Below, piece after piece: positions 5,410 through 57,358 of a stretch of DNA of 64,000 nt; the stretch's first letter is position 1; every line of letters starts with the position of its first letter. The stretch is from Ancylobacter gelatini. GTDB lineage: Bacteria > Pseudomonadota > Alphaproteobacteria > Rhizobiales > Xanthobacteraceae. Below the pieces are notes generated by a model, which saw only the letters and a program-made list of their open reading frames with translations, was not told the origin of the DNA and searched no databases. The translations under genes were made by a program, and so were the position numbers. The stretch is taken from NCBI RefSeq assembly GCF_022601675.1, contig NZ_JAKVIL010000004.1, positions 310,001-374,000 of the forward strand, read 5' to 3'.

Positions 5410-7122
<1,713 letters not shown>

Positions 7123-7180
7123 GGACGCGTATCCGGTCAATCGGGAAGCGGGAGGGCGGAGACGAAACCAGCCGGCGGGG

Positions 7181-7804
7181 TCACAGGCGCCCCATGACCG
7201 CCTGTCGGAAGCCGTAGACCTCCTTCTTGCCGGCAAGGTCCACCAGCATGACCTCGCGCGACTGGCCCGGCTCGAAGCGGACGGCAGTACCGGAGGGAAT
7301 GGCGAGGCGCATGCCGCGCGCCTTCTCGCGGTCGAAAGCGAGGGCGGGGTTGGTCTCGAAGAAATGATAATGGCTGCCGACCTGGATCGGGCGGTCGCCC
7401 GTGTTCGACACGGTGAGCGACAGGAACTCGCGCCCCGCGAGCAGCTCGATCTCGCCGTCCTCGAACAGGATCTCGCCCGGCGCGCCCTCATGTCCCAGCC
7501 CGCCGCGGATCGGCTCATGGACCGTGACCAGCTTGGTGCCGTCCGGGAAGGTCGCTTCCACCTGCACGTCGTGGATCATCTCGGCGACGCCGGGCATCAC
7601 CTGATCGGCCGTGAGCACGGTGGCCCCCAGCGTCATCAGTTCGGCGACGCTCTTGCCGTCGCGCGCGCCTTCCACCACGACATCGGTGATCAGCGCCACG
7701 GCCTCGGGATGGTTCAGCTTCACGCCGCGCTCCAAGCGGCGGCGGGCCACCTGGGCAGCCATGGCGACCAGAAGCTTGTCCTTCTCACGCGGGCTCAGAT
7801 TCAT
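7181..7804 (-). CDS. ureAB: Fused urease gamma-beta subunit (UreA-UreB)
   Basis: The 207-residue product joins two subunits that are usually separate. Residues 1-100 match UreA ([12 protein letters not shown] start, [25 protein letters not shown]). Residues 108-207 match UreB ([30 protein letters not shown], and the VYGF end region). The linker is only a few residues long and there is no stop or internal start between the halves. Gamma-beta fusions are known from Helicobacter and some alphaproteobacteria. The subunit would assemble with UreC in the cytosolic urease. About 150 bases separate it from ureD, with no gene between. Confidence 0.95.
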
Positions 7805-7955
7805 CGGCGTTTCTCCGGCTCACTTCAGGCAATCGGCGGCTAGGTAAGCATGGTTGTCGCGATCACACCACGCACCCGCCCCTCAAATTCAGCGGCTTTC
7901 ACCATCACGCCACATCGCGTGGCGAATTCCGGCGCGCGGGCGGCGCGCTCTTGCA

Positions 7956-8840
7956 TCAGGAATGCCAAATCCGCGGGGGATCCGCCACACCCAGATCGCG
8001 GATGATGCGGCGTATCGCGCGATCGAGCCCCGCCCCGTCACGCGCCAGCAGGCGCACGGCCAGAATGCCGTTCCACGCGCTGGCGCCGGCCTCCAGCCCG
8101 TCGGGCAGGCCGTCTGTCGCCTCTTCCCCGATGCCGAGCGCGGCGCGCACCGGCTGCAGCCGGCTCTCGGCGTCGGGGGCGATCAGGAGAATGGTGGCGA
8201 GCGCCGCCCAGTGCCGCATCACCGCGCCACGTCCCAGCACGGCGGCAAGGTCGCCGGACAGGTCAAGCCCGTCGGCATAGATCAGTCGCCCGTCACGGCG
8301 CACGCGCCAGCTGTCGAACAGGGCGCCTTGGCGGAGCGTCTCGCCGGAGGCGGTGCGCCCGAGTACCAGCGGCTCGACCAGCAGCAGCCGGCCGCTGCCG
8401 GCGACCTCCGCCGTGATGGAGCGCTCGACGCGGGCGCGGTCGAACAGGATGGTGGCCTGCGGCATCCAGTCGAGGCGCGCGCCAGCGCGGACCTCCAGCT
8501 CCACGGCGAGCTGCGTGAGCGCGCCGTCCGAACGGTAGATCTTCTCGGCTGCCTGTGTGGTGAGCACGAGATGGGCGCCGTCGCAGGCGCGGGCCCGGAC
8601 ATGAGAACTATCGCCACCGGCGAAGCCGCCGCCGGTGTTCAGCAGAACGCCTTCCAGCGCCGCGCCGCGCCGGCCGGAGAGCGGGAAGCGCACGCGGCTC
8701 GGCCCCGCCTCCTCCACCGCGCCGCGCACGGTGCGCCCGCCGGCGGCAAGCGCCTCCACGAACAGCCGCCCTTTCGCGCGCAGCTCGACGGGAATGGTCG
8801 AGCGGGGCGAAGCGTCAGACGGCAATTCGGTTGCGTACAT
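7956..8840 (-). CDS. ureD: Urease accessory protein UreD (UreH)
   Basis: UreD is the scaffold that binds apo-urease and recruits UreF and UreG during nickel insertion. The typical block LLNTGGGFAGGD is present, followed by TTQAAEKIYRS. I place the start at ATG 8840 (MYATELPSD) because a GAGG ribosome site lies eight bases before it; this gives 294 residues and a 26-base overlap with the end of urtE. An ATG at 8864 is possible but has no such site. The overlap joins the transporter and enzyme halves of the operon. Confidence 0.93.
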   Translation of the reverse strand: MYATELPSDASPRSTIPVELRAKGRLFVEALAAGGRTVRGAVEEAGPSRVRFPLSGRRGAALEGVLLNTGGGFAGGDSSHVRARACDGAHLVLTTQAAEKIYRSDGALTQLAVELEVRAGARLDWMPQATILFDRARVERSITAEVAGSGRLLLVEPLVLGRTASGETLRQGALFDSWRVRRDGRLIYADGLDLSGDLAAVLGRGAVMRHWAALATILLIAPDAESRLQPVRAALGIGEEATDGLPDGLEAGASAWNGILAVRLLARDGAGLDRAIRRIIRDLGVADPPRIWHS

Positions 8841-9519
8841 CCGGGTCCTCAAGGGCGGCGCCATCGCCCGACATCACCACCGCGCCGCGCTCCATCACGA
8901 TGAAATGGTCCGCGAGCTCCTTGGCGAAGTCGAAATACTGCTCGACCAGCACGATGGCCATATCGCCCTTGCTCCGCAAGTAGCGGATGGCGTTGCCGAT
9001 GTCCTTGATGATCGAGGGCTGGATGCCCTCGGTCGGCTCGTCGAGCACCAGCACCTTCGGGCGCATGGTGAGCGCGCGGCCGATGGCGAGCTGCTGCTGC
9101 TGGCCGCCGGACAGGTCGCCGCCGCGCCGGCGCATCATCGAATCCAGCACCGGAAACAGCGAGAACACGTCATCGGGAATCGAACGGTCGGCGCGCTTGA
9201 GCGGTGCAAAGCCGGTTTCGAGATTTTCCGCCACGGTGAGCAGCGGGAAGATCTCGCGCCCCTGCGGCACGAAGGCGATACCGCGCCGCGCCCGGTCGGC
9301 CGGCGCGAGCCGCGTGATGTCCTCGCCGTTGAAGCGGATGGCGCCGCTGGCGATCGGCTGCTGGCCGACAATGGCGCGCATCAGGCTGGTCTTGCCGACG
9401 CCGTTGCGCCCCAGCACGCAGGTGACCTTGCCCGGCTCGGCGGTAACCGAGACCCCGCGCAAGGCCTGCGCCGCGCCGTAGAAGAGGTTGACGTCCTGAA
9501 CTTCCAGCATGCCGCTCAA
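8815..9519 (-). CDS. urtE: Urea ABC transporter ATP-binding protein UrtE
   Basis: This is one of two ATPases that power the UrtABCDE urea importer at the inner membrane. It is 234 residues long, with Walker A GRNGVGKT at 37-44, the ABC signature LSGGQQQQLAIGRAL, and Walker B VLVLDEPTEG. Its place next to ureD and its LivF-like length identify it as UrtE within the branched-chain amino acid transporter-like family. The start codon overlaps the urtD stop in an ATGA arrangement, and its own end overlaps ureD, so translation is probably coupled. Confidence 0.96.
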   Translation of the reverse strand: MSGMLEVQDVNLFYGAAQALRGVSVTAEPGKVTCVLGRNGVGKTSLMRAIVGQQPIASGAIRFNGEDITRLAPADRARRGIAFVPQGREIFPLLTVAENLETGFAPLKRADRSIPDDVFSLFPVLDSMMRRRGGDLSGGQQQQLAIGRALTMRPKVLVLDEPTEGIQPSIIKDIGNAIRYLRSKGDMAIVLVEQYFDFAKELADHFIVMERGAVVMSGDGAALEDPDVRNRIAV

Positions 9520-10319
9520 CGCCCCAGATAGACTTCGATGACGCGCTCATTGGCGCTCACCTGATCGAGCGTGCCTTCCGCCAGCACGGAACCTTCGTGA
9601 AGGCACATCACCCGCACGCCAAGGTCGCGCACGAAGGTCATGTCGTGCTCGACCACCACCACGGAATGGCCATTGGCGTTGATCTCGCGCAGCAGCTCGG
9701 CGGTCTGCGCGGTCTCGGCGTCGGTCATGCCCGCGACCGGCTCGTCGACCAGCAGGAGCTTGGGGTCCTGCGCCAGCAGCATGCCGATTTCCAGCCACTG
9801 CTTCTGCCCGTGCGAGAGCGCCCCGCCGAGGCGGCCACGATGCTCGGTGAGCTTGATGGTCTCGAAGATTTCGTCGATGCGGTCGCGCTGCTCGGCGGTC
9901 TCCTTGCGGAAGATGTTCGGCAGGGCGGAGCGCTGCCCCTTGAGCGCGAGGCGCAGATTGTCGAGCACGGTGTGGCTCTCGAACACGGTCGGCTTCTGGA
10001 ACTTGCGGCCGATGCCGAGCGTGCAGATCTGCGTCTCGTCGAGCTTGGTGAGATCGACCGTGCCGCCGGCGAAGAACACGTCGCCCCTGTCGGGCCGGGT
10101 CTTGCCGGTGATGCAGTCCATCATCGTGGTCTTGCCGGCACCGTTCGGGCCGATGATGGCGCGCATCTCGCCCGGATCGACCGTGAAAGACAGCGCGTTA
10201 AGCGCGCGAAAGCCGTCAAAGGTGACAGTCACGCCGTCGAGATAGAGCAGCGCCTCGGTCAGGTCCTTCTTGGCGATGGCGTCGACCGGTGCGGGTTCCA
10301 GCGTTTCGGTAGTGCTCAT
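9516..10319 (-). CDS. urtD: Urea ABC transporter ATP-binding protein UrtD
   Basis: This is the second ATPase of the urea importer, LivG-like. Starting at ATG 10319, which has a GGGAGG ribosome site, it is 267 residues. Walker A is GPNGAGKTT (57-65), the signature is LSHGQKQWLEIG, and Walker B is LLLVDEPVAGM. The LSHGQKQWLEI variant is typical of UrtD rather than LivG. The open frame continues upstream into urtC, but the upstream part is just the other frame of that gene. It lies 11 bases after urtC and overlaps urtE by four bases. Confidence 0.96.
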   Translation of the reverse strand: MSTTETLEPAPVDAIAKKDLTEALLYLDGVTVTFDGFRALNALSFTVDPGEMRAIIGPNGAGKTTMMDCITGKTRPDRGDVFFAGGTVDLTKLDETQICTLGIGRKFQKPTVFESHTVLDNLRLALKGQRSALPNIFRKETAEQRDRIDEIFETIKLTEHRGRLGGALSHGQKQWLEIGMLLAQDPKLLLVDEPVAGMTDAETAQTAELLREINANGHSVVVVEHDMTFVRDLGVRVMCLHEGSVLAEGTLDQVSANERVIEVYLGR

Positions 10320-10330
10320 GGTCGCCTCCC

Positions 10331-11485
10331 TCACTCCGCCGGCCGGGGCTCGGCGAGCGGCGGGGCCGCCTCGTCCGGCGGCGGACGGCGCTTCTCCCGC
10401 CACTCATAGAACGTGCCGACGATGCCCTTGGGCAGGAACAGCGTGACCGCGACGAACAGCCCGCCCAGCATGAACAACCAGTAGGGCGCCAGCAGGCCGG
10501 AGGTGAAATAGGTCTTGGCATAGTTCACCAGCACCGCCCCGAGCGCAGCGCCGACCAGCGTGCCACGCCCACCCACAGCCACCCAGACGATGATCTCGAT
10601 CGAATTGGCCGGCGAGAATTCGGAGGGGTTGATGATGCCGACCTGCGGCACGTAGAGCGCGCCGGCAATGCCCGCCAGCATGGCCGAGACCACGAAGGCG
10701 ACCAGCTTGTAGTTCTCCGCCCGGTAGCCGGTGAAGCGCACGCGCGTCTCGGCGTCGCGGATGGCGACCAGCACCTTGCCGAAATGCGAGCGCACCAGGA
10801 AGCGGCACAGCACATAGCCGCCCGCCAGCGCCAGCGCGGACAGCGCGAACAGCGTGGCGCGGGTGCCGTCGGACTGGATATTGAAGCCGAGAATATCCTT
10901 GAAGTCGGTCAGGCCGTTATTGCCGCCGAAGCCCATGTCGTTGCGGAAGAACGCCAGCAGCAGGGCGAAGGTCATGGCCTGGGTGATGATCGACAGGTAC
11001 ACGCCGGTGACGCGCGAGCGGAAGGCGAACCAGCCGAACACCAGCGCCAGCACGCCGGGGGCGAACAGCACCATCAGCGCGGCATAGGGGAACATATCGA
11101 AACCCCACCAGAACCAGGGCAGCTCCTTCCAGTTCAGGAACACCATGAAGTCCGGCAGCACGGGATCGCCATAGACGCCGCGCGTGCCGATCTGGCGCAT
11201 CAGATACATGCCCATCGCGTAGCCGCCGAGCGCGAAGAAGGCGCCATGGCCGAGCGAGAGAATGCCGACATAGCCCCAGATCAGGTCCACCGAGAGCGCC
11301 AGCAGGGCGTAGGTGAGATATTTGCCCAGCAGCGAGACCACATAGGTCGGGATGTAGAACGGCGAATCCGGCGGCAGCAGCAGGTTCAGCGCCGGCACCA
11401 GCACGGCGACGCCGAGCGTGATGGCGAGGAAGATCTGGCCGCTGGTGCCGAGCAGGGCCGGCGGGCGGGTGTCGAGCGTGCTCAT
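10331..11485 (-). CDS. urtC: Urea ABC transporter permease UrtC
   Basis: This 384-residue integral membrane protein is of the LivM type, with about ten hydrophobic segments and the characteristic GYVGILSLGHGAFFALGGY block. It forms the urea channel with UrtB. It is longer than LivM, as UrtC usually is, with an insertion near residues 100-130 and a proline-rich charged C-terminus. Its ATG overlaps the urtB stop (ATGA). Confidence 0.95.
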   Translation of the reverse strand: MSTLDTRPPALLGTSGQIFLAITLGVAVLVPALNLLLPPDSPFYIPTYVVSLLGKYLTYALLALSVDLIWGYVGILSLGHGAFFALGGYAMGMYLMRQIGTRGVYGDPVLPDFMVFLNWKELPWFWWGFDMFPYAALMVLFAPGVLALVFGWFAFRSRVTGVYLSIITQAMTFALLLAFFRNDMGFGGNNGLTDFKDILGFNIQSDGTRATLFALSALALAGGYVLCRFLVRSHFGKVLVAIRDAETRVRFTGYRAENYKLVAFVVSAMLAGIAGALYVPQVGIINPSEFSPANSIEIIVWVAVGGRGTLVGAALGAVLVNYAKTYFTSGLLAPYWLFMLGGLFVAVTLFLPKGIVGTFYEWREKRRPPPDEAAPPLAEPRPAE

Positions 11486-13113
11486 GATTCGATCGCCCTC
11501 CCCTTGAGAGCGAAGAGGCCGCGCGGCCGCTTCTGGATGAACAGAATGACGATGACCAGCAGCGCGATCTTGCCCAGCACGGCGCCGGCATAAGGCTCCA
11601 GCAGCTTGTTGGCGATGCCGAGCGACATGGCGCCGACCAGCGTGCCCCAGAGATTGCCCACGCCGCCGAACACCACGACGAGGAAGCTGTCGATGATGTA
11701 GCTCTGGCCGAGATTGGGCGACACGTTGTCGATCTGGCTGAGCGCCACCCCGGCGATGCCGGCGATGCCGGAGCCGAGGCCGAAGGTCATGGCGTCCACC
11801 CAGTTGGTGCGGATGCCCATCGAGGCCGCCATGCGCCGGTTCTGCGTGACCGCGCGCATTTCCAGCCCGATGCGGGTGAGCCGCAGCACGCCGAGCAGCG
11901 CGACAAAGACGAGGAAGGCGAAGATCACGATCCAGAGCCGGCCATAGGTGATGGCGAGATGGCCGAGGTCGAAGGTGCCGGACATCCAGCTCGGCGCGCC
12001 AACCTCGCGGTTGGTCGGTCCGAACGCGGTGCGGATCGCCTGCTGGATGATCAGCGAGATACCCCAGGTGGCCAGCAGCGTTTCAAGCGCGCGGCCATAG
12101 AGGAAGCGGATCACGGTGCGCTCGATCAGCACCCCGATGAGGCCGGTGAACAGGAAGGCCACGGGAATGGCGATCAGCAGCGAGGCATCGAACAGAGCGG
12201 GGTTATAGGTGCGGATCAGTTCCTGCACCACGAAGGTGGTGTAGGCGCCGAGCATCACCATCTCGCCATGGGCCATGTTGATGACGCCCATCACGCCGAA
12301 GGTGATGGCAAGGCCGATGGCGGCAAGCAGCAGCACCGAACCCAGCGAGACACCGTACCAGACATTCTGTGCGGCGCCCCAGATGGCGAGATTGCGCTCG
12401 ATCCCGGCAATGGCGTCGGCGGCGGCCTGCTTCACCTCGGGGGCCGCGCTGTCGGGCACGCTGCGCAGGATGGCGAGAGCGTCCTGGTTGCCTTCAGCGC
12501 CCACCAGTTCCACGGCGGCGATGCGTTCGGCCGGCGTGATGCCTTCCTTGGCGATGACGATCGAAGCGCGCGCCAGCGTCATGGCGGTCTTCACGCGCGG
12601 GTCGGTTTCCTTGGCGAGCGCGGTCTCCAGCGCCGGGAGCGCCGCCTCGTCGCGGGAGCGGCCGACCGCCTGCGCGGCGTCGAGGCGCTTGGCAGCGTCC
12701 GGGCTCACCAGCGAGAGAGCGCCGTTGGCGGCCTCGATCGCGCGGCGGATGCGGTTGTTGACGCGCACCGGCTTTACCGCCGGGGCGTCCGCCACCGGCT
12801 GGAGCGTCACCGGGTCGAGCAGCGCCCCCGCCGCGTTGCGGATGAAGACCTGTCGGGTCGACGGGCTGAAGACGAGATTGCCGTCGGCGAGTGCGGAGAC
12901 GATGCCGGCGGCGGCGGGACTGCCGCTGAGCGCCAGCTCACCAAGCGCAGCTTCCGTGTTGCCATAATTGTCGGTGGCGATCTGGCCGAGCGGCCCGCTC
13001 AGGTCCTGCGCCTGGGCACGATCCGCGCCCGGCAGGCAGAAGGAGGCAACCGATAGCAGAAAGGCCAGCGCGCAGCAGAAGCTACGAAATCGAGCGATGG
13101 TGGTCATCGTCAT
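11482..13113 (-). CDS. urtB: Urea ABC transporter permease UrtB
   Basis: UrtB is a LivH-type permease with an extra N-terminal periplasmic domain, which is what is seen. A signal peptide (about residues 1-35) precedes a roughly 220-residue soluble region rich in Ala and charged residues, then a membrane half starting near NVWYGVSLGSVLLLAAIGLA. The permease motif GVINMAHGEMVMLGAY is intact. I chose ATG 13113 (MTMTTIARF), giving 543 residues; ATG 13107 is equally possible. The frame is open further upstream but lacks a signal-like start. It is separated from urtA by a 161-base gap with a hairpin. Confidence 0.95.
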   Translation of the reverse strand: MTMTTIARFRSFCCALAFLLSVASFCLPGADRAQAQDLSGPLGQIATDNYGNTEAALGELALSGSPAAAGIVSALADGNLVFSPSTRQVFIRNAAGALLDPVTLQPVADAPAVKPVRVNNRIRRAIEAANGALSLVSPDAAKRLDAAQAVGRSRDEAALPALETALAKETDPRVKTAMTLARASIVIAKEGITPAERIAAVELVGAEGNQDALAILRSVPDSAAPEVKQAAADAIAGIERNLAIWGAAQNVWYGVSLGSVLLLAAIGLAITFGVMGVINMAHGEMVMLGAYTTFVVQELIRTYNPALFDASLLIAIPVAFLFTGLIGVLIERTVIRFLYGRALETLLATWGISLIIQQAIRTAFGPTNREVGAPSWMSGTFDLGHLAITYGRLWIVIFAFLVFVALLGVLRLTRIGLEMRAVTQNRRMAASMGIRTNWVDAMTFGLGSGIAGIAGVALSQIDNVSPNLGQSYIIDSFLVVVFGGVGNLWGTLVGAMSLGIANKLLEPYAGAVLGKIALLVIVILFIQKRPRGLFALKGRAIES

Positions 13114-13208
13114 CCGTCGATGTGGCGCGTGGAAAAGGCCGGAGTCGGTCCGGCGGCGATGAGGAGGCGGACAGCCGCCTTCCCGGCACGCGTCGTCGCG
13201 TGAAGGGG

Positions 13209-13246
13209 AACCGGCCACCTTCGGGACTGCCCGGGGGCGGCCGGTT
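13209..13246. repeat. Inverted repeat between urtA and urtB
   Basis: AACCGGCC at 13209-13216 pairs perfectly with GGCCGGTT at 13239-13246, closing a GC-rich loop that can pair further. It lies about 30 bases after the urtA stop and has no T-run on the minus strand, so it is more likely an mRNA-stabilising or partially attenuating hairpin than a full terminator. Such structures commonly let a binding-protein gene be expressed above the permease genes. Confidence 0.6.
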
Positions 13247-13274
13247 CGATCAAGCGTCAGGCGTCAGCCCGGCA

Positions 13275-14585
13275 TCAGTTGCCGGCGCCGCCGCACTTGC
13301 CGGTCTTCACGTTGAAGTTGCCGCAGTTCATCGGCGAACGCCAATCGGAGATCAGGTCCTTGGAGCCTTCGAGGTGGGGCGACCACTCTTCGGCGACGAT
13401 CAGGCCCGGGGTCTGGGACACGACGTCGAACTGGCCGTCATCCTTGATTTCGCCGATCAGCACCGGCTTGGTGATGTGGTGGTTCGGCATCATCGCCGAG
13501 AAGCCGCCGGTGAGGTTCGGAACGGCCACGCCGATCAGCGCCGGGATCACGACGTCCGGATCGGTGGTGCCGGCCTTCTCGACCGCCTTGACCCACATGT
13601 TGAAGCCGATGACGGTGGCTTCCATCGGGTCGTTGGTCACGCGCTTGTCGTTCTTGATGAACGCGCGCCACTTCTCGATGAACGCCTTGTTCTCCGGCAC
13701 GTCGACCGACTGGAAGTAGTTCCACGCGGCGAGGTGGCCGACCAGCGGCTTGGTGTCGATACCGGCGAGTTCTTCCTCACCCACCGAGAACGCCACGACC
13801 GGGATGTCGGTCGCCTTGATGCCCTGGTTGCCGAGTTCCTTGTAGAACGGGACGTTGGCGTCGCCGTTGATGGTCGACACGACGGCGGTCTTCTTGCCGG
13901 CCGAGCCGAACTTCTTGATGTCGGCGACGATAGTCTGCCAGTCCGAATGACCGAACGGCGTGTAATTGATCATGATGTCCTCGGCGGCGACGCCCTTGGA
14001 CTTCAGGTAGGCTTCGAGAATCTTGTTGGTGGTGCGCGGGTACACGTAGTCGGTACCGGCGAGCACCCAGCGCTTCACGCCTTCGTTTTCCATCAGGTAG
14101 TCGACGGCGGGAATCGCCTGCTGGTTCGGGGCCGCGCCGGTGTAGAACACGTTGCGCTCGCTCTCCTCGCCCTCGTACTGGACCGGATAGAACAGGATGC
14201 CGTTCAGCTCCTTGAACACCGGGAGCACGGACTTGCGGGAGACCGAGGTCCAGCAGCCGAACACGACCGCGACCTTTTCCTTCTCCAGAAGCTCACGCGC
14301 CTTCTCGGCGAAGAGCGGCCAGTTCGACGCGGGGTCGACGACTACGGCCTCAAGCTTCTTGCCGAGCACGCCGCCGGCGTCATTCTGCTCCTTTACCATG
14401 AACAGCACGGTGTCCTTCAGCGTGGTCTCGCTGATGGCCATGGTGCCGGAGAGGGAGTGCAGCACCCCGACCTTGATGGTGTCCTGGGCATTCGCCGGTA
14501 CCGCGGAACCGGCAATCGCCAGCGCGGTCGCGCCCAACAGTGCGCGGCCGGCCACGCGCCGCGCATGGGTGAACAGGTTCGACAT
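13275..14585 (-). CDS. urtA: Urea ABC transporter substrate-binding protein UrtA
   Basis: This is the periplasmic urea receptor of the importer. From ATG 14585, preceded by an AGAAGGGA ribosome site, it is 436 residues with a signal peptide of about 33 residues ending in PANA. The mature N-terminus QDTIKVGVLHSLSGTMAISE and the block VVVDPASNWPLFAEKARELL are typical of UrtA. The C-terminus carries the expected Asn-Cys-Gly and Lys-Cys-Gly pair. It is the first gene of the operon and lies about 50 bases downstream of the predicted sigma-54 transcription start. Confidence 0.97.
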   Translation of the reverse strand: MSNLFTHARRVAGRALLGATALAIAGSAVPANAQDTIKVGVLHSLSGTMAISETTLKDTVLFMVKEQNDAGGVLGKKLEAVVVDPASNWPLFAEKARELLEKEKVAVVFGCWTSVSRKSVLPVFKELNGILFYPVQYEGEESERNVFYTGAAPNQQAIPAVDYLMENEGVKRWVLAGTDYVYPRTTNKILEAYLKSKGVAAEDIMINYTPFGHSDWQTIVADIKKFGSAGKKTAVVSTINGDANVPFYKELGNQGIKATDIPVVAFSVGEEELAGIDTKPLVGHLAAWNYFQSVDVPENKAFIEKWRAFIKNDKRVTNDPMEATVIGFNMWVKAVEKAGTTDPDVVIPALIGVAVPNLTGGFSAMMPNHHITKPVLIGEIKDDGQFDVVSQTPGLIVAEEWSPHLEGSKDLISDWRSPMNCGNFNVKTGKCGGAGN

Positions 14586-14645
14586 TTTATTTCCCTTCTG
14601 GAGTACGCACGCAGGACCCCCGTCCGCGTGCCGAAGGGGGAGGTG

Positions 14646-14661
14646 TGCAACGCCCGTGCCA
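14646..14661 (-). promoter_or_regulatory. Sigma-54 (RpoN) promoter of the urt-ure operon
   Basis: Read on the minus strand this is TGGCAC-GGGCG-TTGCA, an exact match to the -24/-12 consensus TGGCAC-N5-TTGCW with correct spacing. It lies about 60 bases before the urtA ATG. Sigma-54 promoters of urea transport operons are usually activated by NtrC under nitrogen limitation. I did not find a clear NtrC dyad within the 180 bases upstream, so the activator is inferred, not seen. Confidence 0.88.
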
Positions 14662-14839
14662 ACACAGGGAGTCTCGGGCTGGGGCGGCTCGTCACCGCGG
14701 CGCCCCACGACCAAAGAACAATATGCCGAAATTCGCGCCATATGCTCAGAGATTGTACGCTGACGCGGGATCGTCCGGTTTCGGCCGCGATGTTGGCATA
14801 CAAACTAATGCTGCCTGCCTGCGAATGGCGGTTTCTGCC

Positions 14840-16077: not shown

Positions 16078-17184
16078 CTACCCTGCCAGCACCGCGTGAT
16101 TGTCGAAACGCGGCCCGCCCGAGCGCCGCGCGACGACACCGACGCCCTCGCCGTCGGTCGCGATCAGCACCACCTCGCCGAGCCCGCTGGTGGCGAGGAA
16201 CTGGCCCGGCTCTCGCGTCGGCGCGAGGCCGCAGCCGTCGACCAGCGGGATCGAGCCGAGGAAACGCCCATCGGCCTTCCACAGCATCACCCGGTTGCCG
16301 CGCGGGCTGGCGGCGGCGACAAAGGCGCCCGAACGGTCATAGGCGACCGAACCGACATAGGTGCGCAGACCGCGCCATTCCGCGTCCGGCGCGTCGAAGG
16401 CGCGCAGCCTTTCGCCCTCCACCGCATAGACCAGCGGGCGGGCGATCTCATCGGCGATCAAATCCTGCGCGGCGACGACCACCTGCCCCGTCGGCCCGGC
16501 CGCGAGATGGCGCAGCGACAGCGAGGACAGATCGTCCGAAAGCTCGGCCACCGCGCGCAGCCGGCCGGTCTGCGCGTCGAGCAGCGCGATGCTGGCGCCG
16601 GCAACCTCGGCACCGATGGCCTCGGGCGTGTGCGGCTCGATACCGCCATTGGCCACCACCAAAGCGCCGCCCGACGGCAGCATGTCGTGCGGGCCGATGC
16701 CCGAGGACGCCCATTCGGCGACGATGGCAAACCCGGCCTCGACGTCGCGCAGCGAGACGACGCCATCGCCGCCCGGCACCTCGATCTCCACCGCCAGAAA
16801 GCGCTGTCCGCCCTCGATGAAGCGGCCATGGCCGGAGAACACCCGCCCCTCGCCCGGCTCGAAGGTCGCGAGCACCGTGCCGTGCCGGCGGTCGAACAGC
16901 AATGCCGTCGTGCCGGGCCGGCGGGCCACCGCGATCGCGGTGGCCCCGTCCGGGCTCGGCTCCACCCAATGCAGCCGCTGCATGCCGGCGCCGACCTGCG
17001 TCGCGCCGTAATCGGGCGACAGCACGACCGGCGCGAAACCGTCGGCCACGCCGGCGGTCGCCAGCCACTCGACCTCCAGCAGATGGTCCTGCGCGTGGGC
17101 GGTGCCGAACAGCACGCGCGGCGCGCTCGCGAGGCTGCCGACGGCGGCGAGAAGCGAGCGGCGGGAGAGGTCAAAGAGGCCCAT
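16078..17184 (-). CDS. Tat-exported DUF1513 beta-propeller-like protein
   Basis: The start is ATG 17184, preceded by GAGG; a TTG four codons earlier is less likely. The 368-residue product begins with a twin-arginine signal (SRRSLLAA), so it should be exported folded. The rest has repeated short beta-rich segments with Gly-His and Gly-Asn turns, as in DUF1513 proteins. Family members are found next to imelysin genes, but no activity is known to me. Its order last in the iron-related set, 8 bases after the second imelysin, supports a joint role in periplasmic iron handling. Confidence 0.85.
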   Translation of the reverse strand: MGLFDLSRRSLLAAVGSLASAPRVLFGTAHAQDHLLEVEWLATAGVADGFAPVVLSPDYGATQVGAGMQRLHWVEPSPDGATAIAVARRPGTTALLFDRRHGTVLATFEPGEGRVFSGHGRFIEGGQRFLAVEIEVPGGDGVVSLRDVEAGFAIVAEWASSGIGPHDMLPSGGALVVANGGIEPHTPEAIGAEVAGASIALLDAQTGRLRAVAELSDDLSSLSLRHLAAGPTGQVVVAAQDLIADEIARPLVYAVEGERLRAFDAPDAEWRGLRTYVGSVAYDRSGAFVAAASPRGNRVMLWKADGRFLGSIPLVDGCGLAPTREPGQFLATSGLGEVVLIATDGEGVGVVARRSGGPRFDNHAVLAG

Positions 17185-17192
17185 GACCCGCC

Positions 17193-18317
17193 TCAATCGC
17201 CATCGAGCGCGTTGAAGCCCAGCGGCACGCCGAGGCCGGAGGCCAGCGGATCGGCGACCTTGGCCTGCGCGGCCTTGAAGGTCGCGGCCGCGCTCTCCAG
17301 CGCCTTGCGGCCCTGCGGTGTGGTGGCGGCCGTGCCAATATCATCGGGCAGAGCTTGCGCGGCCTTGGCCGCAGCGTCGGTGGCGGCTGCAATCACGGCC
17401 TGCCCCTTGGCGTCGATGCCCTTGGCCAGCAGCAAAGCGAGGTCGTCGGCGCTGGTGATCATTGCGGCGATGGTCGCCTTCGACAGGCCGCTGCGCCGCC
17501 GGTCCGCGATCAGCGGCCTGGCCTCGTCGGGCGACTTGCCGAGCACCGCCAGCAGCCGCTGGTCCACGACGCGCTGATAGGCACCGGCAAGGTCGGTCAC
17601 GATCTGGCTGAGCAGCGCGGACGGATCGGGGAAGAACACCGGGTCGCTCTTTCCGGCGAGAAGTTGGGCCAGCAGGCCGCTCGTGCGATCGCCCCAGCCT
17701 TGCCGGATCTCGCCCGCCATGGTGTCGAGATTGCCGGCGACCGCGAGACCGATCCCGCAGCGCCGTGTCGCTTCCGGCCCGGCGAGCAGCGCGTCGGCCG
17801 CGCCTTCTTCATAAAGCAGGCGCTCCAGTGCCGGCAGGCCCTGCGCGGCGGCGCTGAGCCGCCCGAAACGCTCCGGCTGCAGCCGTTCGTCGGTCGGGTC
17901 GGCGATCAGTTCGGCCAGCGAGCGACCGATGGCGTTGCGCCGCTCGGGGAACAGGTTGAAACGATCCGGGCGGAGCGACAGCGTGACCGGGCCGAAGGTG
18001 ATGAACTCGACCGAGGCCCAGGCATTCGACGTCGCCGCGAACCGCTGCTTCAGCTCTGCCAGCCCGGCGGCGGAAGGGCCGGCGCAGAAGCGGGCCCAAG
18101 CGTCCTTCTGCGCGGTGGTCGCGGCATGGAGCGCGTCATAGCGCGGCAGCAGCCATTGCTCGACCACCTCAGGGGCGGCGATCGGCGCGGCGTGGGCCCG
18201 GACGCTGAAAAACTGCGCCACCAGCGTGGCCGCCGTAGCGACCGCCGGCACGCCCAGCGCGGTCTGCCCGATCTGCGAGGCGAGCGCCAGAGCCATGGCG
18301 AGGGGGGAGCGGGACAT
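17193..18317 (-). CDS. Imelysin-family periplasmic protein (second paralogue)
   Basis: From ATG 18317 (GAGG site) the protein has 374 residues and a Sec signal ending near residue 43. The imelysin repeat fold of helices is recognisable from blocks such as SNAWASVEFITFGPV and GLPALERLLYE. The latter replaces the GxHxxE metal motif, since the histidine is absent here, so metal binding may differ from the first imelysin. A longer ATG at 18347 overlaps the upstream gene and lacks a ribosome site. It lies 13 bases after the di-heme gene and 8 bases before the DUF1513 start. Confidence 0.87.
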   Translation of the reverse strand: MSRSPLAMALALASQIGQTALGVPAVATAATLVAQFFSVRAHAAPIAAPEVVEQWLLPRYDALHAATTAQKDAWARFCAGPSAAGLAELKQRFAATSNAWASVEFITFGPVTLSLRPDRFNLFPERRNAIGRSLAELIADPTDERLQPERFGRLSAAAQGLPALERLLYEEGAADALLAGPEATRRCGIGLAVAGNLDTMAGEIRQGWGDRTSGLLAQLLAGKSDPVFFPDPSALLSQIVTDLAGAYQRVVDQRLLAVLGKSPDEARPLIADRRRSGLSKATIAAMITSADDLALLLAKGIDAKGQAVIAAATDAAAKAAQALPDDIGTAATTPQGRKALESAAATFKAAQAKVADPLASGLGVPLGFNALDGD

Positions 18318-18330
18318 GATCGGCCTCGGA

Positions 18331-19680
18331 TCAGAGGGAAGAAACATAGTCGAGCAGGGCGCGGCGCTGGCGCGCGCTCAACTCGTCAAAACGGTCACGG
18401 GCGCGGGCGGCCTCGCCGCCGTGCCACCTCACCGCCTGCGCGACATCGGCCGCCCGGCCATCATGCAGCAGGCCGGCGCCGCGCGCGAGGCCGCGCGACA
18501 GGCCCGCCAGTGGCGCGGTGCGCCATTCGCCCGCGCCCGCCCCCGGCACGCCGACCGGATCGGCGAGGCCCTCGCCCATGTCGTGCAGCAGCACATCCGT
18601 GAACAGCGCCACTGTTCCGCCGTCGCGCAATTGCAGTTCCGGACGATGACAGGTGGCGCAACCGGTGGAAGCGAACAGCCGGGCGCCATGCGCGTCAGCC
18701 TCGGTCGAAGGCAGCTTCAACCCGGCGAGATAGGCAACGATGCGCTGGACGATGGCGTCGCCTATTTCCGGCGCGCCCTCGGCGTCGCGGCCATGGGGCG
18801 CGTTGCGGCAGCCCGTCTGCGCCTCGCTACAGTCGCCCCAGGGCTCCGGGCGCTCGGGGGTGGAAAGGCCAAGGTCGAGCGAAAAGGCTTCGGCGGTCTG
18901 GCTCGCCAGCGTGGCATGGCTCGCCTTCCAGCCGAAACGACCGATGGCCGAGCCGCCTTCGGCATGGTCCAGCCGCCGCGCACGGCCCCGCACGCCGTCG
19001 CCGTCGCGGTCATCCGGGTCCTCCAGCGCGAGGATCGTGGCGTCGTCCACCTGCTCCAGCAGGCCACGTCCGCGCAACTCCGGGGCGGCACGCAGCGAGA
19101 TGAAGGTGGCGGGGTCCAGCGGCCCATATCCGGCATTCTCGATGCGCGGCACGCGGCGTCCCTGCTCGACGGCGACCGCGATCTCGCCTTCCGCCGGCAC
19201 GCCGGGCAGAGTCATGGTTTCCATCCGACGGCCATAGACCGGATCGGCCGCGCCATCCTCCCGGATCAGCGACAGCACCAGACCAAGCCCTTCCGGCCGG
19301 CCGGCCTCGTCCAGCGCCGTGGCCCCGCGCCCGGCACCCGCCGGGTGGCAGGCCGAGCAGGAGCGGGCGTCGAACAGCGGGCCGAGCCCATCATTGGCGC
19401 GGGTGGAACTGGGCGCGGGCACCCAGGGCCGTTCAAACAGGGCCTTGCCGATCGCGCGGTCGAGCCCGGCCTCCCCGGCCTGGGCGGGCGGCGCGAGAAC
19501 GGCGAGACCCGACAGGACGCCGCCCGCGAGCGCGAGCCATGCCAGGCCTCTCCGCCACAGGGGGAAGCCGGCCGCGCGGCTTCCGGGCAAGGGCGAGCGC
19601 GGCGTGGCAGGCCGGCGCGACCTCGCCCCGCCCCCTCGAGGAGAGGAAGTATGCCACGCGATCGGGTCGGAGGGCGCCAT
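18331..19680 (-). CDS. Di-heme cytochrome, DUF1111 (thiol oxidoreductase-like) family
   Basis: The 449-residue protein has two c-type heme sites, CSACH at 108-112 and CATCH at 341-345, and a hydrophobic export segment at about 45-65 ending in AQA. This arrangement fits the DUF1111 di-heme family, related to MauG and cytochrome c peroxidases. It should be periplasmic. Its ATG at 19680 overlaps the stop of the multicopper oxidase (TGATG), implying coupled translation. The basic stretch before the membrane segment is unusually long, so a later start is possible. A role as electron acceptor or peroxidase in iron oxidation is inference. Confidence 0.88.
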   Translation of the reverse strand: MAPSDPIAWHTSSPRGGGARSRRPATPRSPLPGSRAAGFPLWRRGLAWLALAGGVLSGLAVLAPPAQAGEAGLDRAIGKALFERPWVPAPSSTRANDGLGPLFDARSCSACHPAGAGRGATALDEAGRPEGLGLVLSLIREDGAADPVYGRRMETMTLPGVPAEGEIAVAVEQGRRVPRIENAGYGPLDPATFISLRAAPELRGRGLLEQVDDATILALEDPDDRDGDGVRGRARRLDHAEGGSAIGRFGWKASHATLASQTAEAFSLDLGLSTPERPEPWGDCSEAQTGCRNAPHGRDAEGAPEIGDAIVQRIVAYLAGLKLPSTEADAHGARLFASTGCATCHRPELQLRDGGTVALFTDVLLHDMGEGLADPVGVPGAGAGEWRTAPLAGLSRGLARGAGLLHDGRAADVAQAVRWHGGEAARARDRFDELSARQRRALLDYVSSL

Positions 19681-21131
19681 CACACCACCCGGAAATAGCC
19701 CATCATCCCGGTCTCCATATGCTCCAGGATGTGGCAGTGGAACACCCAGTCCCCCGGCGCGGCGACGAAGGCGATCTCCACCGCCTCCCCCGGCTGCACC
19801 AGCACGGTGTCCGCCAGATGACGCGGCAGCCGGTCGAGACTGGAGGAGAGCACCTCGAAGGCATGGCCGTGGAGGTGGACGGGATGCGGAAAGCGCGTTT
19901 CGTTCTTGATCTCGACGCGGTAGCTGGCATCGGCCCTCATGGTCGCGAGCGGCGGCGGCACGCTGCGGCGCTCACCGGTGGGCCAGCTATCCTGATTGAT
20001 GCCCCAATAGGTGGTGGAGCCAACGCACAGGCTGTCGAGCAGGGCCTTCGCCAGCGGATCGTCCGGGGGGAGACTGAGTTCCTTCACCGCGCTGTCGGTC
20101 GCCTGCTGCAGCGTGAAGGAATGGCGTGTCGCCTTTTTGAGGTCGGCGCGCGGAATGGCGGCCTTGGGCAGGGCATAGGCCGGCTTGCCGCGCTTCACCC
20201 GGCCCTGCGCGGTGAGCGTGGCGAAGCTGTAGATGTCGGCGGCGCGATAATCGCCGATCGTCACTGTGGAGCCATCCGCCGGCATGCGCAAAGCGAGGTC
20301 TATGCGCTGGGCCGGACCCATGCGCCAGACGCCATCCGGCAGCGAATCCAGGCTCACGGGCGGCAAGGCATGGCCGTCGACCGCGATCAGCATCGCCTCC
20401 GCGCCCTCGACGCCGATATCCATGATGCGGGTCGAATCGACGTTCAGGATGCGCAGCCGCACATCTCCACCCGCCGGGGCCGACAATTCGAGCGCGGCCA
20501 CGCCGTTCACCGAGCGCGTGGCGCCGAAGGTGCCGGCCTTCGAGGCGCCGTCCGGCTCGGACAGATCGAGGAAGCTGCCGTCCTGCGCGAGGCGCCAGTC
20601 CTTCAGCGACAGCACATGCTCGGCGTCGAATGTGGGATCGCGCGGGTCCTCGACGACCAGCACGCCGACCAGCCCGCGCCCGGCCTGCCCGGTCTCGTCG
20701 CAATGGGGATGGAAGAAGAAGGTGCCGGGATCGTCCAGCGGGATGCGGTAGACGAAGCGACCGCCGGGCTGAATCAGCGGCTGGGTGATGGTCGGCACGC
20801 CATCATATTCGTTCGGCATGCGGATGCCGTGGAAATGCACGGTCGAGCCCTCATCGAGCCCGTTCTCGAAGGTGGCCTCAAGCCGCGTGCCGCGCGGCAG
20901 GCGCAATTCCTGAAAAGGGATTCCGTCATAGGCATAAATGCGCGTGGCGGGTCGGTCGGCGCCGAGCAGGCGGAAATCCATCTCGCCGGAGGCCAGCGTC
21001 AGAGTCTTCGTCGGCACGAAGGCGGCCGGCGTGCGGGCGACACTGACACGCGAAGGGGCCAGTGCCGCCCCCGCGCCCAGTGCCGCCGCGCCAAGAAAGG
21101 CGCGGCGCGAGAGTGTCGCGCCGCCGCTCAT
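19680..21131 (-). CDS. Tat-exported multicopper oxidase
   Basis: The 483-residue protein starts with a twin-arginine signal (LSRRAFLGAA). All four copper-binding histidine motifs are present: HFHG (99-102), HPHC (141-144), HPVHLHGH (416-423) and HCHILEHMETGMM (465-477), the last holding the type 1 copper Cys and Met ligands. The second motif is His-Pro-His rather than the more usual His-Ser-His. The family includes CueO, laccases and bacterial ferroxidases. Its location between an imelysin and a di-heme protein suggests ferrous iron or cuprous copper as substrate, which is inference. Confidence 0.92.
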   Translation of the reverse strand: MSGGATLSRRAFLGAAALGAGAALAPSRVSVARTPAAFVPTKTLTLASGEMDFRLLGADRPATRIYAYDGIPFQELRLPRGTRLEATFENGLDEGSTVHFHGIRMPNEYDGVPTITQPLIQPGGRFVYRIPLDDPGTFFFHPHCDETGQAGRGLVGVLVVEDPRDPTFDAEHVLSLKDWRLAQDGSFLDLSEPDGASKAGTFGATRSVNGVAALELSAPAGGDVRLRILNVDSTRIMDIGVEGAEAMLIAVDGHALPPVSLDSLPDGVWRMGPAQRIDLALRMPADGSTVTIGDYRAADIYSFATLTAQGRVKRGKPAYALPKAAIPRADLKKATRHSFTLQQATDSAVKELSLPPDDPLAKALLDSLCVGSTTYWGINQDSWPTGERRSVPPPLATMRADASYRVEIKNETRFPHPVHLHGHAFEVLSSSLDRLPRHLADTVLVQPGEAVEIAFVAAPGDWVFHCHILEHMETGMMGYFRVV

Positions 21132-21141
21132 CGCTGCGGGC

Positions 21142-22428
21142 TCACTGGCCGACCTTGGAAGGATCGTCCAGGCTGTCGGAGCCTTCGACCTTGATCTTCA
21201 GCTTGAGCGCGGAGACCACGCCCTCGATGGCGCGGGTCTGGGCAACGAGGGAATCGACGCCCTTCTGCACCAGCGCGTTGCCCTCGACATTGCCTTCGCC
21301 GATCTGCTGGTCATAGGCCTGCTTGCCGCTGTCGGCCTCGTCCTTGATCGCCTTGAGCGCGGCCAGCGCGGCGTCGATCTTGGCTTCCGCCTCGTCATTC
21401 GCCTTGGGCGCCAGAGCGGCGGCATAGGCGGCGATGGACGGCCCCTCGACCACCGACCCGTCGACGCGGGTGTACGTGCCGCGATAGATGGAGGCGATGC
21501 CCAGCTCGTCATAATAATGCGAGTTGTGGGTGTTGTCGGAGAAGCAGTCATGCTCCTCCTCGGGGTCGTGCAGGATCAGACCGAGCTTCATGCGCTCGCC
21601 CGCCAGTTCGCCATAGGAGAGCGAGCCGAGGCCGGTGAGGATGGTGCCGAGCGCGGCCTTGCCCTTCTGGTCCAGCACCGCCTTGCGGGCCTTGCCCTTC
21701 GGCCCCCACCACTTGGTCATGTCGGTGAGGTCGGTCACCAGCAGGTCGGTCGCGGCCTTGAGATAGGCGGCGCGGCGCTCGCAGTTGCCGCCGGTGCAGT
21801 TCGAGGTCGAGTAATCGGTCGCGGGGCGCTTGCCGGCGCCCGGTCCGGTGCCGTTCAGGTCCTGACCCCAGAGCAGGAATTCAATGGCGTGATAGCCAAT
21901 GGCGACATTGGATTCGACGCCGCCCGCCTCCTGAAGGCTGTCCAGCAGCTTCGGGGTGATCTTGGTGGTGTCGATGGTTTTCTTGCCGACGCGCACCTTG
22001 GTATTGGCGATGATGTTCGCGGTATAGAGGGGGTTCTCGTCCGACGTATCGCCATAGCTCTTGTCGACGTAATCGATGAGGCCTTCGTCGAGCGGCCAGG
22101 CGTTCACGCGGCCTTCCCAGTCATCGACGATGGCATTGCCGAAGCGGAAGCCCTCGGTCTGCTGGTAGGGCACGCGGGCGGCCTTCCAGGCGGCCTTGGC
22201 GGTGCCGAGATTGGCCTCGGTGGGTTCGGCGATGAAGGCGTTGACCGCAGTCTGGAGCGCCTTGGCGGTCGTCAGGCTGTCGCCATACATCGCCTCGGCG
22301 ATATTGGCGTAGGTGACGGCAATGTCCTTGGGCTTCGGCGCGGTATCGGCATGCGCCGGGGCGGCGGCGACCGCGCCCAGCGCGAGGGCCGCGAGCAGCG
22401 GCGCGGCGAATGTCATTCGGGCTCGCAT
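21142..22428 (-). CDS. Imelysin-family iron-regulated protein (IrpA-like)
   Basis: From ATG 22428, with a strong GGAGGAGA ribosome site, the product is 428 residues with a Sec signal ending in AHA near residue 27. The imelysin metal motif is intact as GYHAIEFLLWG (178-188). Blocks such as VDDWEGRVNAWPLDEGLIDY and a C-x4-C pair (SNCTGGNCE) are typical of IrpA-type proteins. These are periplasmic or surface proteins linked to iron acquisition and related to the EfeO domain. It is the first gene of a five-gene operon and lies downstream of an AT-rich promoter with a TTTAGAA-type operator. Confidence 0.92.
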   Translation of the reverse strand: MRARMTFAAPLLAALALGAVAAAPAHADTAPKPKDIAVTYANIAEAMYGDSLTTAKALQTAVNAFIAEPTEANLGTAKAAWKAARVPYQQTEGFRFGNAIVDDWEGRVNAWPLDEGLIDYVDKSYGDTSDENPLYTANIIANTKVRVGKKTIDTTKITPKLLDSLQEAGGVESNVAIGYHAIEFLLWGQDLNGTGPGAGKRPATDYSTSNCTGGNCERRAAYLKAATDLLVTDLTDMTKWWGPKGKARKAVLDQKGKAALGTILTGLGSLSYGELAGERMKLGLILHDPEEEHDCFSDNTHNSHYYDELGIASIYRGTYTRVDGSVVEGPSIAAYAAALAPKANDEAEAKIDAALAALKAIKDEADSGKQAYDQQIGEGNVEGNALVQKGVDSLVAQTRAIEGVVSALKLKIKVEGSDSLDDPSKVGQ

Positions 22429-22513: not shown

Positions 22514-22595
22514 TACTTTAGAATGTTTATACAGTGAATGCTACGCTGCGTCATGTCGGCTATTGATCAGCATCAAGGCGAATACTTTAGGATGT
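22514..22595. repeat. Two TACTTTAG(A/G)ATGT direct repeats upstream of the imelysin operon
   Basis: A 13-base motif occurs at 22514-22526 and again at 22583-22595 with one mismatch, 69 bases apart start to start, in a short AT-rich island of an otherwise GC-rich sequence. The first copy overlaps the predicted -10 box; the second lies beyond the -35 box near the stop of the small gene. The core TTTAGAA resembles the half-site of the alphaproteobacterial Irr (ICE) box. Confidence 0.5.
22526..22554 (-). promoter_or_regulatory. Sigma-70 type promoter of the imelysin operon
   Basis: On the minus strand ATGACG (22554-22549) and TATAAA (22531-22526) are separated by exactly 17 bases and lie about 100 bases before the imelysin ATG. 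The TTTAGAA motif at 22518-22524 adjoins the downstream edge of the -10 box, a position suited to repression. The promoter is a consensus match by eye only. Confidence 0.55.
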
Positions 22596-22604
22596 GGGCC
22601 GGGT

Positions 22605-22892
22605 TCACGAAGCAGGATTCGCCAGCGTGGCCAGCGCCTCTTGCAGATCCTCGTCCGTTACGCTGGCGAGCGGGCGCAGCACCTTGGCGGCCTCGGTCTT
22701 GCGGCCGGGACGCATCACCAGCACCACCGTCTCGGCACCGCCGCAGGCCGGATCGCCGCAGGCGATTTCAGTGATCGACAAGGTGGTTTCCTCGCCGACG
22801 CCGAGAATCTCCCGGGCTTTCCGCGCAAGCTCGCGCGCCGCATCGGGCGCCGCCTCGCTGCCCTGCCCCCGGCGAAAGAATAGCCGTGCCAT
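22605..22892 (-). CDS. Small conserved hypothetical protein
   Basis: The 95-residue soluble protein starts MARLFFRRGQG and has no signal or membrane segment. Its central part (ITEIACGDPACGGAETVV) has two cysteines five residues apart in a Cys-Gly-Asp-Pro-Ala-Cys motif, followed by basic residues and a helical C-terminus. I recognise similar sequences as conserved unknowns in alphaproteobacteria, but no function is known to me. The gene is followed by the imelysin operon promoter and may be a single-gene unit. Confidence 0.7.
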   Translation of the reverse strand: MARLFFRRGQGSEAAPDAARELARKAREILGVGEETTLSITEIACGDPACGGAETVVLVMRPGRKTEAAKVLRPLASVTDEDLQEALATLANPAS

Positions 22893-23238
22893 ACTTCAAT
22901 CCTCGTTCGCGCCGCGTGGACCTCGTTCGCGCCGCGCGGGCCGCTTCGTGCAGCAGCTAAGCGCGCGGCGCGTCCGGCGCAAGCCGCCACGACGGCGGGC
23001 AGATTTATCCAAGTAAATTCAAACCGCCTTCTTTAGAACTATAATAACAATTAAAGATAGGCATTGTGATACTGAGCGTGACGGAGTATTCATCTTCACG
23101 AAGTTGATGACCACGGCGAAATCCGGGCGTCATCGACTGCCTGACAGGTTCGCGAGACCGTTTTCCCGGCTGGTCTCGTGATCCCGCGCGGGACGGCGGC
23201 ACGCGCTCCCTCAGCCGTCGTCCCGCGCTTTCAGGCCC
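22893..23238. other. 346-base gap with an AT-rich island
   Basis: No gene is supported here. Near its left end is a tandem duplication: CCTCGTTCGCGCCGCG at 22901-22916 is repeated at 22921-22936. The section 23000-23110 is strikingly AT-rich and contains TTTAGAA (23032-23038) followed by ATAATAA, which could be the promoter and an iron-box half-site for the small gene at 22892. An open frame at 23005-23202 has no recognisable features. Confidence 0.5.
22901..22940. repeat. Tandem 20-base duplication
   Basis: Two adjacent 20-base units share their first 16 bases (CCTCGTTCGCGCCGCG) and differ only in the last four. They lie 8 bases upstream of the small gene start at 22892. The repeat looks like a recent slippage duplication, and no function is evident. 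Confidence 0.7.
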
Positions 23239-57020: not shown

Positions 57021-57358
57021 GTCATCCACGGGCTCGAAATCCGGCCGGCCCACCTAAATGGGAAAAGCCTCGCTGAAGGGGCCGGCCTTTCGGAATGCTT
57101 GCAAAAAAGGGCCATCTCCTTCATAGCTTGGCCAACTCTTCTGCTGCCGGAATATATCGTGTCGCACAATTGAATCTGCAACCGATGCAATCCAGCGTAG
57201 AATATTAGAATTATTCTAATAAGTTAAGGTCCCTACCCTGTGTCGTCAAGGCGCCGGCGGTAATCAGGAGCCCGGAGGGGACGAGCGCGGATCATCCGCT
57301 CGCTGTTTCCAAAGGACCACGATCCGGCCCGCGCCGCACCCCCAAGGTCACGAACTTC
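57021..57358. other. 338-base divergent promoter region of the suf cluster
   Basis: No gene is seen. The middle part (57160-57240) is AT-rich, with a 19-base palindrome (listed separately) and a TATATT box at about 57150-57155 on the minus strand that could be a -10 for the suf operon (TTGCAG lies 19 bases before it). The right part, toward the hydrolase gene, is GC-rich and holds its leader. Confidence 0.5.
57203..57221. promoter_or_regulatory. ICE-like (Irr) palindrome upstream of the suf cluster
   Basis: TATTAGAAT-T-ATTCTAATA is a perfect 9-1-9 inverted repeat. It contains the TTAGAA/TTCTAA halves of the iron control element bound by Irr in Rhizobiales. Irr and RirA are known to regulate suf operons in that group. 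The site is about 180 bases before the first suf gene and 140 before the hydrolase, so it could act on both. Which regulator binds is inferred. Confidence 0.7.

Follow-up and report, generated by a model that had tools for sequence, protein, structure and literature searches.

The best-described relative of the locus reported here is the PA4370-PA4373 operon of Pseudomonas aeruginosa. According to the sections of Xu 2011 (PMC3143127) available to us, this operon is Fur-regulated and encodes an imelysin of the ICMP family, a DUF1111 protein and a second imelysin, PA4372, which is of the IPPA type and has lost the motif histidine (GxxxxE). The same sections equate DUF1111 with EfeB, a comparison that is loose because EfeB is a DyP peroxidase (PMC3577903, accessible part). 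Here we describe an operon of five minus-strand genes in a 64,000-nucleotide stretch of Ancylobacter gelatini DNA (contig NZ_JAKVIL010000004.1, positions 310,001 to 374,000; hereafter the window). Leaving aside one gene, which encodes a multicopper oxidase (MCO), the operon is by its family content of the known PA4370-PA4373 type. In our reading it handles iron, is regulated by iron and has all of its products exported; one subtype of the PA4370-PA4373 type would have kept a Tat-exported MCO, proposed to oxidise Fe(II). We give this reading a probability of roughly 0.45.

Gene content and comparison with PA4370-PA4373

The five genes occupy positions 22428-16078, in the following order:

21142..22428, minus strand: imelysin 1, ICMP family, GxHxxE motif reading GYHAIE (ATG start at 22428; PF09375, 7.6e-83)
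19680..21131, minus strand: MCO, three Cu-oxidase domains (Pfam), twin-arginine N-terminus
18331..19683, minus strand: DHOR, the DUF1111 protein, di-haem (GTG start at 19683 or ATG at 19680; PF06537, 8.8e-45)
17193..18347, minus strand: imelysin 2, IPPA/PA4372 type, motif reading GLPALE with the histidine gone (PF09375, 4.5e-34)
16078..17196, minus strand: DUF1513 protein, twin-arginine N-terminus (TTG start at 17196 or ATG at 17184; PF07433, 2.5e-78)

An earlier, sequence-only reading of this DNA had described five packed and exported genes without a permease. Our gene calls agree with its coordinates and, with the longest starts, a 10-base gap separates imelysin 1 from the MCO, followed by overlaps of 4, 17 and 4 bases. 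Pfam searches of the five proteins returned the families given above and no transporter family, leaving the operon with no known permease. Export of all five proteins also agrees with what we found, as the MCO and DUF1513 begin with twin-arginine N-termini and the N-termini of the other three are Sec-like, judged by reading alone. Imelysin 1 matches the structure of ICMP (PDB 7xrx, E-value 7e-119), and the two CxxCH motifs of DHOR are CSACH and CATCH.

The likeness to the P. aeruginosa operon covers the ICMP-type imelysin with its GxHxxE motif, the di-haem DUF1111 protein, the second imelysin without the histidine and the presence of a fourth gene, PA4373, which we take to be DUF1513 itself. 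The two differ in the MCO that stands here between the first imelysin and the DUF1111 protein, and this operon is therefore a variant of the PA4370-PA4373 type rather than a plain member. They also differ in regulation, by Fur there and with a predicted Irr-type site here, and in imelysin 1, in which we saw no lipobox by reading. The imelysin-DUF1111 neighbourhood that the sequence-only reading described as known is documented in the available sections of Xu 2011 (PMC3143127). Its further statement that a combination with an MCO was not known to be described holds as well, since none was found in the open-access literature among the matches listed. Papers joining imelysin and multicopper oxidase (including the accessible part of PMC9174327) do not, as far as seen, treat this operon, and a full-text search of the open-access literature found DUF1513, alone or with imelysin, in no paper.

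Distribution across genomes

Querying the genome collection with 16 aligned operon MCOs gave 552 confirmed relatives. We retained the 80 best of these, loci that are by construction chosen by MCO similarity. All five genes are present in order at 67 of the 80; 65 of these are plain, one has imelysin 2 doubled (L116) and one has the MCO in two frames (L120). At four more loci imelysin 1 adjoins the MCO, two of which hit contig ends (L062, L066) and two of which show no visible rest of the operon (L077, L079). The MCO stands alone at nine loci, at one of them in two pieces. Five-gene carriers are found in Ancylobacter, Xanthobacter, Aquabacter, Azorhizobium, Microvirga, Methylopila, Kaistia, Hyphomicrobium, Azospirillum and Dongia, with named strains of Ancylobacter, Xanthobacter and Azospirillum among them, and the annotation of an Azospirillum oryzae plasmid lists precisely these five products.

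Across the complete MCO-bearing (MCO-plus) operons, the MCO lies between imelysin 1 and DHOR in 79/79, and the GxHxxE motif is present in imelysin 1 in 79/79 and in imelysin 2 in 0/79. The twin-arginine pattern occurs in 77 of these MCOs and 74 of the DUF1513 proteins; in its loose form it also matches imelysin 1 (20/79), imelysin 2 (34/79) and DHOR (22/79).

The order sample (n = 199 genomes) contains DUF1513 in 96 genomes, with an MCO beside it in 15 and no adjacent MCO in 81. In the phylum sample (n = 299 genomes), DUF1513 scored above cut-off in 55, and an MCO lies beside it in three (G000, G077 and G205), all from the same class as the window. The adjacency counts (15/199 and 3/299) come from comparing tabulated gene positions by hand, and some cases may be concealed by the ends of draft contigs. 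All five genes were found in each of the 12 MCO-plus order genomes that were fetched. Among the 28 of 81 genomes fetched from those without an adjacent MCO, 23 have the order imelysin 1-DHOR-imelysin 2-DUF1513 and five do not. The five-gene arrangement is neither a strain quirk nor the result of chance, and the case considered in the sequence-only reading, of an MCO accompanying the other four genes in this strain alone, does not apply.

Operons with imelysin, DUF1111 and DUF1513 are thus widespread, as the 96 DUF1513 genomes of the order illustrate. The lineage that has a copper oxidase using O2 fixed in its operon offers a handle on their biochemical job, since it predicts that Fe(II) is oxidised aerobically in an extracytoplasmic step, with ferric importers encoded elsewhere taking over.

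Inheritance of the multicopper oxidase

A FastTree phylogeny of imelysin 1, DHOR and DUF1513 contained 101 rows (104 before three duplicates were dropped), 76 of them MCO-plus and 25 lacking the MCO (MCO-minus). Two label changes between these groups were counted on the tree, compared with a mean of 22.4 for shuffled labels, and sporadic insertion of the MCO was accordingly rejected. One of the two changes is an apparent loss (L141), and 24 of the 25 MCO-minus rows sit on one branch with a support of 100 (FastTree, no bootstrap). By this tree, the MCO-plus and MCO-minus operons are separate old lineages. Pairwise MCO distances also track those of the other four genes, with r between 0.84 and 0.89 (75 loci). 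Given the two changes on the tree and the tracking distances, the MCO seems to have belonged to one alphaproteobacterial subtype for a long time and to have been inherited with its other genes. The tree is to be read with its sampling in mind, as MCO similarity decided which MCO-plus rows entered it and the MCO-minus rows come from one order, and a long-branch warning attaches to L160 and to L099 with L111.

Predicted regulation by iron

Beyond the sequence-only reading, what is new here is this clade structure together with a predicted Irr-type site upstream of the operon. Our scans used TTTAGAANNNTTCTAAA, which we take to be the consensus of the iron control element (ICE). The ICE is the site of Irr (PMC3413700, accessible part). 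Two such sites were predicted upstream of imelysin 1:

22517..22533, minus strand: predicted ICE-like site (Irr box), TGTATAAACATTCTAAA, matching at 12 of the 14 specified bases and lying 88 bases upstream of imelysin 1
23032..23048, minus strand: second, weaker ICE-like site with 3 mismatches, only tentatively part of an operator region

In the window, three matches with up to three mismatches were found, against 0.05 expected. The whole genome has seven places with up to two mismatches, the site at 22517-22533 among them, against none for a reversed-pattern control. Another of the seven, a near-perfect ICE at 57204-57220 (ATTAGAATTATTCTAAT), served as a check on the motif; 150 bases separate it from the cysteine desulfurase gene downstream (55851-57053), and the genes that follow read by eye as sufB, C, D and S. 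Three of the seven genome sites lie within 1 kb, at bfd, the bacterioferritin gene bfr (TIGR00754, 217.8 bits) and a gene for an SBP_bac_6-type ABC binding protein. Of the remaining two, one is at the 5' end of the exbB frame (TIGR02797, 313.7 bits) and the other at that of a formate dehydrogenase gamma frame. The genome also encodes irr (NF045678, 225.1 bits, cut-off 150), adjoining a gene that reads as fabA, so both parts of an Irr regulon, the regulator and a predicted ICE-type box two mismatches from the consensus, are present.

Related operons carry iron-type sites of several kinds. GAAYAATTC palindromes occur upstream in 9/9 loci of the Xanthobacter/Aquabacter/Azorhizobium group, and a Fur-like GAATGATTC (GAACGATTC in one) occurs upstream in 12/12 Azospirillum loci. 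Over all MCO-plus operons, GAANNNTTC was found upstream in 26/79 (resampled mean 6.2, largest 14) and GAA[TC]NATTC in 21/79 (resampled mean 0.8, largest 4); the controls were resampled from an order-1 Markov model, and species that are related do not count as independent. In the MCO-minus operons, GAANNNTTC was found in 6/25 (resampled mean 2.0, largest 6), and two loci with bfd or bfd-bfr in the MCO position, L151 and L140, have ICEs matching 14 and 13 of 14 bases. In Rhodobacter sphaeroides, irpA (RSP_1548), which we take to be an imelysin of the same type, adjoins bfd (RSP_1547) by locus tag. Both genes are induced by iron limitation, and more so with oxygen (PMC4176601), and the induction of irpA is also described in PMC3413700, as far as the accessible parts of these papers go. 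Taken together, the operon is likely to belong to an iron regulon, and the iron role proposed in the sequence-only reading is now better supported by the predicted Irr-type site.

Control may run in either direction. In the species treated in PMC3413700, Irr represses under iron depletion, while the title of Rudolph 2006, as cited there, speaks of both positive and negative control. Repression under depletion would suit a role in iron detoxification, in which plentiful iron removes Irr, the operon is derepressed and its products oxidise excess Fe(II) and sequester it extracytoplasmically; ICE sites mark bfr and suf in the same genome as well. Such a role is at odds with the Fur regulation of the Pseudomonas operon (PMC3143127), the induction of R. 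sphaeroides irpA by iron limitation (PMC4176601 and PMC3413700), all as given in the available sections, the Fur-like boxes of the Azospirillum loci and the ICE of the uptake gene exbB, and we consider it unlikely.

Permeases and the EfeUOB comparison

The EfeUOB and EfeUOB-M systems resemble this operon in an M75 imelysin domain, an exported haem protein and the iron theme. The operon differs from them in having no FTR1 permease and a separate three-domain MCO. Both of its imelysins match PF09375 alone, with no cupredoxin-M75 fusion, and DHOR is a c-type di-haem protein, with no DyP family match among the five proteins (Pfam, E-value 0.01). The A. gelatini genome (4.31 Mb, 99.83% complete) gave no match to FTR1 and none to FeoB_C, and neither was found in 11 of the 15 MCO-plus genomes of the order sample; FTR1 is present in the other four. 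A partnership of the EfeU or Fet3-Ftr1 kind therefore fails here, and EfeU-like pairing fails as a general rule. With DHOR not being a DyP-type EfeB either, the parallel to EfeUOB drawn in the sequence-only reading is weak, and the interpretation given there is upheld only in part.

A lack of FeoB was considered as an explanation of the MCO and rejected: FeoB_C was found in 0/15 MCO-plus genomes, 12/81 MCO-minus genomes and 18/103 genomes without DUF1513, and MCO-plus genomes do not differ significantly from the rest (Fisher p 0.13). FTR1 is rarer in genomes with DUF1513 (11/96) than in those without (32/103; p 0.0009, uncorrected for phylogeny), and it is not rarer in the MCO-plus genomes (4/15).

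Properties of the multicopper oxidase

In 78/78 aligned operon MCOs, including the one in the window, none of the copper ligands (ten His and the Cys) is missing. With three domains, complete ligands and its tie to iron, the MCO resembles that of yeast Fet3p-Ftr1p; unlike in yeast there is no FTR1, and the acidic iron-site pattern was not seen at the one position compared. That position is a CueO column in an alignment without Fet3p, and we take acidic residues to form the Fet3p iron site. A ferroxidase activity is plausible, and a direct ferroxidase role of the MCO is possible, at somewhat less than even odds.

As a Tat-type three-domain enzyme, the MCO is also similar to CueO and CopA, and it might be a cuprous oxidase of copper tolerance that hitch-hikes in an iron operon. 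It has partial NCBIfam matches to copper_res_A (157 bits) and CueO (108.5 bits), both far below the cut-offs of 478.95 and 525. The stretch aligned to the Met-rich segment of CueO has 0-2 Met in the 78 operon MCOs compared to 14 in CueO. The absent Met-rich segment and the low scores speak against copper tolerance, there is no copper gene among the five and the regulatory sites are of the iron type. A CueO-type role is thus disfavoured by the sequence, and the hitch-hiking explanation as a whole is very unlikely.

Cys144 and Cys369 are invariant in the MCO clade. They were rejected as a marker of the operon, as they are also present in 27/28 MCOs from loci without the full operon (4/4 with imelysin 1, 8/8 solo in named strains and 15/16 others, a few of them copies from one genome).

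Some of the stand-alone MCOs of this clade lie beside a gene for a cytochrome c with two CxxCH motifs. This was seen in 5/14 distinct genomes (L107, L119, L122, L170 and L173), with L031 and L174, whose scores agree with those of L119 and L122, treated as copies of these two. Positions were noted for three of these di-haem cytochrome c genes:

L107, 8062-8967: di-haem cytochrome c beside a stand-alone clade MCO
L119, 10286-11239: di-haem cytochrome c beside a stand-alone clade MCO
L122, 4874-6424: di-haem cytochrome c beside a stand-alone clade MCO

No two-CxxCH neighbour was found at 11/11 more distant MCO loci, nine of which were seen with flanks of about 1.5 kb only. The neighbours hint that haem-to-copper electron transfer may be a theme common to the clade. 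Accordingly, one could suppose that the MCO is the O2-consuming partner of the di-haem cytochrome, with electron flow between DHOR and the MCO, and that free iron is not its own substrate. The MCO directly precedes DHOR in 79/79 complete operons, and the DHOR model resembles MauG and di-haem peroxidases (see below). Adjacency does not equal electron transfer, however, and nine of the 14 genomes with a stand-alone clade MCO have no such cytochrome neighbour. We hold this alternative to be rather unlikely, although it stands above detoxification and copper tolerance.

Structural models and proposed function

Searching solved structures by sequence with DUF1513 and DHOR yielded no useful match. 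The DUF1513 model is a beta-propeller (pLDDT 91.1) with a designed seven-bladed propeller as its best match (Z 30.7, 2.4 Å, 277 residues), and it also matches hydrazine synthase chain 5c2v_B (Z 28.5). The DHOR model (pLDDT 88.2) matches 5c2v_C (Z 14.0, 4.0 Å, 220 residues) and MauG (Z 13.7, 3.4 Å, 227 residues), with di-haem (bacterial cytochrome c) peroxidases tied at Z 13-14; its Foldseek E-values are weak, the best being 3.3e-4. Chains B and C of 5c2v are presumably the beta and gamma subunits of hydrazine synthase. The two models are thus alike to parts of hydrazine synthase and of the MauG/methylamine dehydrogenase system, a likeness limited by low identity and by the commonness of propellers, which match many proteins of no known relation with Z values as high or higher.

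By analogy, DHOR might sit as a MauG-like di-haem protein on the DUF1513 propeller, in a manner reminiscent of hydrazine synthase. This arrangement would form part of a single extracytoplasmic haem-copper ferroxidase complex of DHOR, DUF1513 and the MCO, in which O2 oxidises imelysin-held iron and shared ferric importers replace the permease. We regard such a complex as improbable.

Under our preferred reading of an exported iron-handling operon, the MCO would use O2 under iron limitation to oxidise Fe(II), either directly or via the di-haem DHOR. The imelysins would bind the resulting Fe(III) and hand it over to a ferric importer encoded elsewhere, for example an ABC or TonB system, and DUF1513 may serve as a scaffold or partner subunit. 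We propose that the operon can do without its own permease, since ferric importers shared with other systems would take up what it delivers. The exbB gene and the gene for the ABC binding protein bear the same kind of ICE site as the operon, and we infer that iron is the cargo of this binding protein.

Several observations weigh against the preferred reading. The ICE in the window is imperfect, with two mismatches, and in the Ancylobacter-group relatives L044, L045, L047 and L051 only 8-9 of the 14 bases match. No GAANNNTTC palindrome lies within 300 bases upstream of 53/79 MCO-plus operons. The MCO distance correlations drop to 0.18-0.47 for deep pairs. CueO has an aspartate, D439, four residues ahead of its type-1 histidine, and none of the 78 operon MCOs has Asp in that alignment column. 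Finally, 81 of the 96 DUF1513 genomes in the order sample have no MCO beside DUF1513, so the core works without it.

Variants of the locus and neighbouring genes

Genes other than the MCO can follow imelysin 1. At 4/28 loci without an MCO (L133, L140, L151 and L153) these are bfd and/or bfr, which also favours a role in iron handling; DHOR was not found at L153. Both bfd and bfr lie between imelysin 1 and the MCO in 1/79 MCO-plus operons (L064, Aestuariivirga, 6467-13784). Porin genes stand between imelysin 1 and DHOR at two MCO-minus loci, L134 (2759-4639, OprB) and L135 (5557-6852, by reading, with no Pfam match). At L145 and L148, also MCO-minus, the operon is broken into divergent halves. 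The MCO is split over two frames at L120 (8986-10474, Xanthobacter agilis) and at L112 (2187-3632, a Rhodospirillales metagenome-assembled genome), reflecting decay or sequencing error.

The flanking aminotransferase and FAD genes were rejected as operon members, as they recur only in the 13 Ancylobacter-group loci and one duplicate of them, with the exception of one weak aminotransferase match outside this group. A different aminotransferase gene lies upstream of the operon in nine Azospirillum loci. A small open reading frame near 22893 was likewise rejected as a member. It occupies 22606-22893 on the minus strand, between the two ICE-like sites, encodes 95 amino acids (MARLFFRRG...) and is kept in 13 Ancylobacter-group loci. 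Promoter and terminator scans and k-mer counts gave nothing useful. Further along the window, at 11482-14741 on the minus strand, genes read by eye as the permease and binding protein of a urea-type ABC transporter (UrtB and UrtA).

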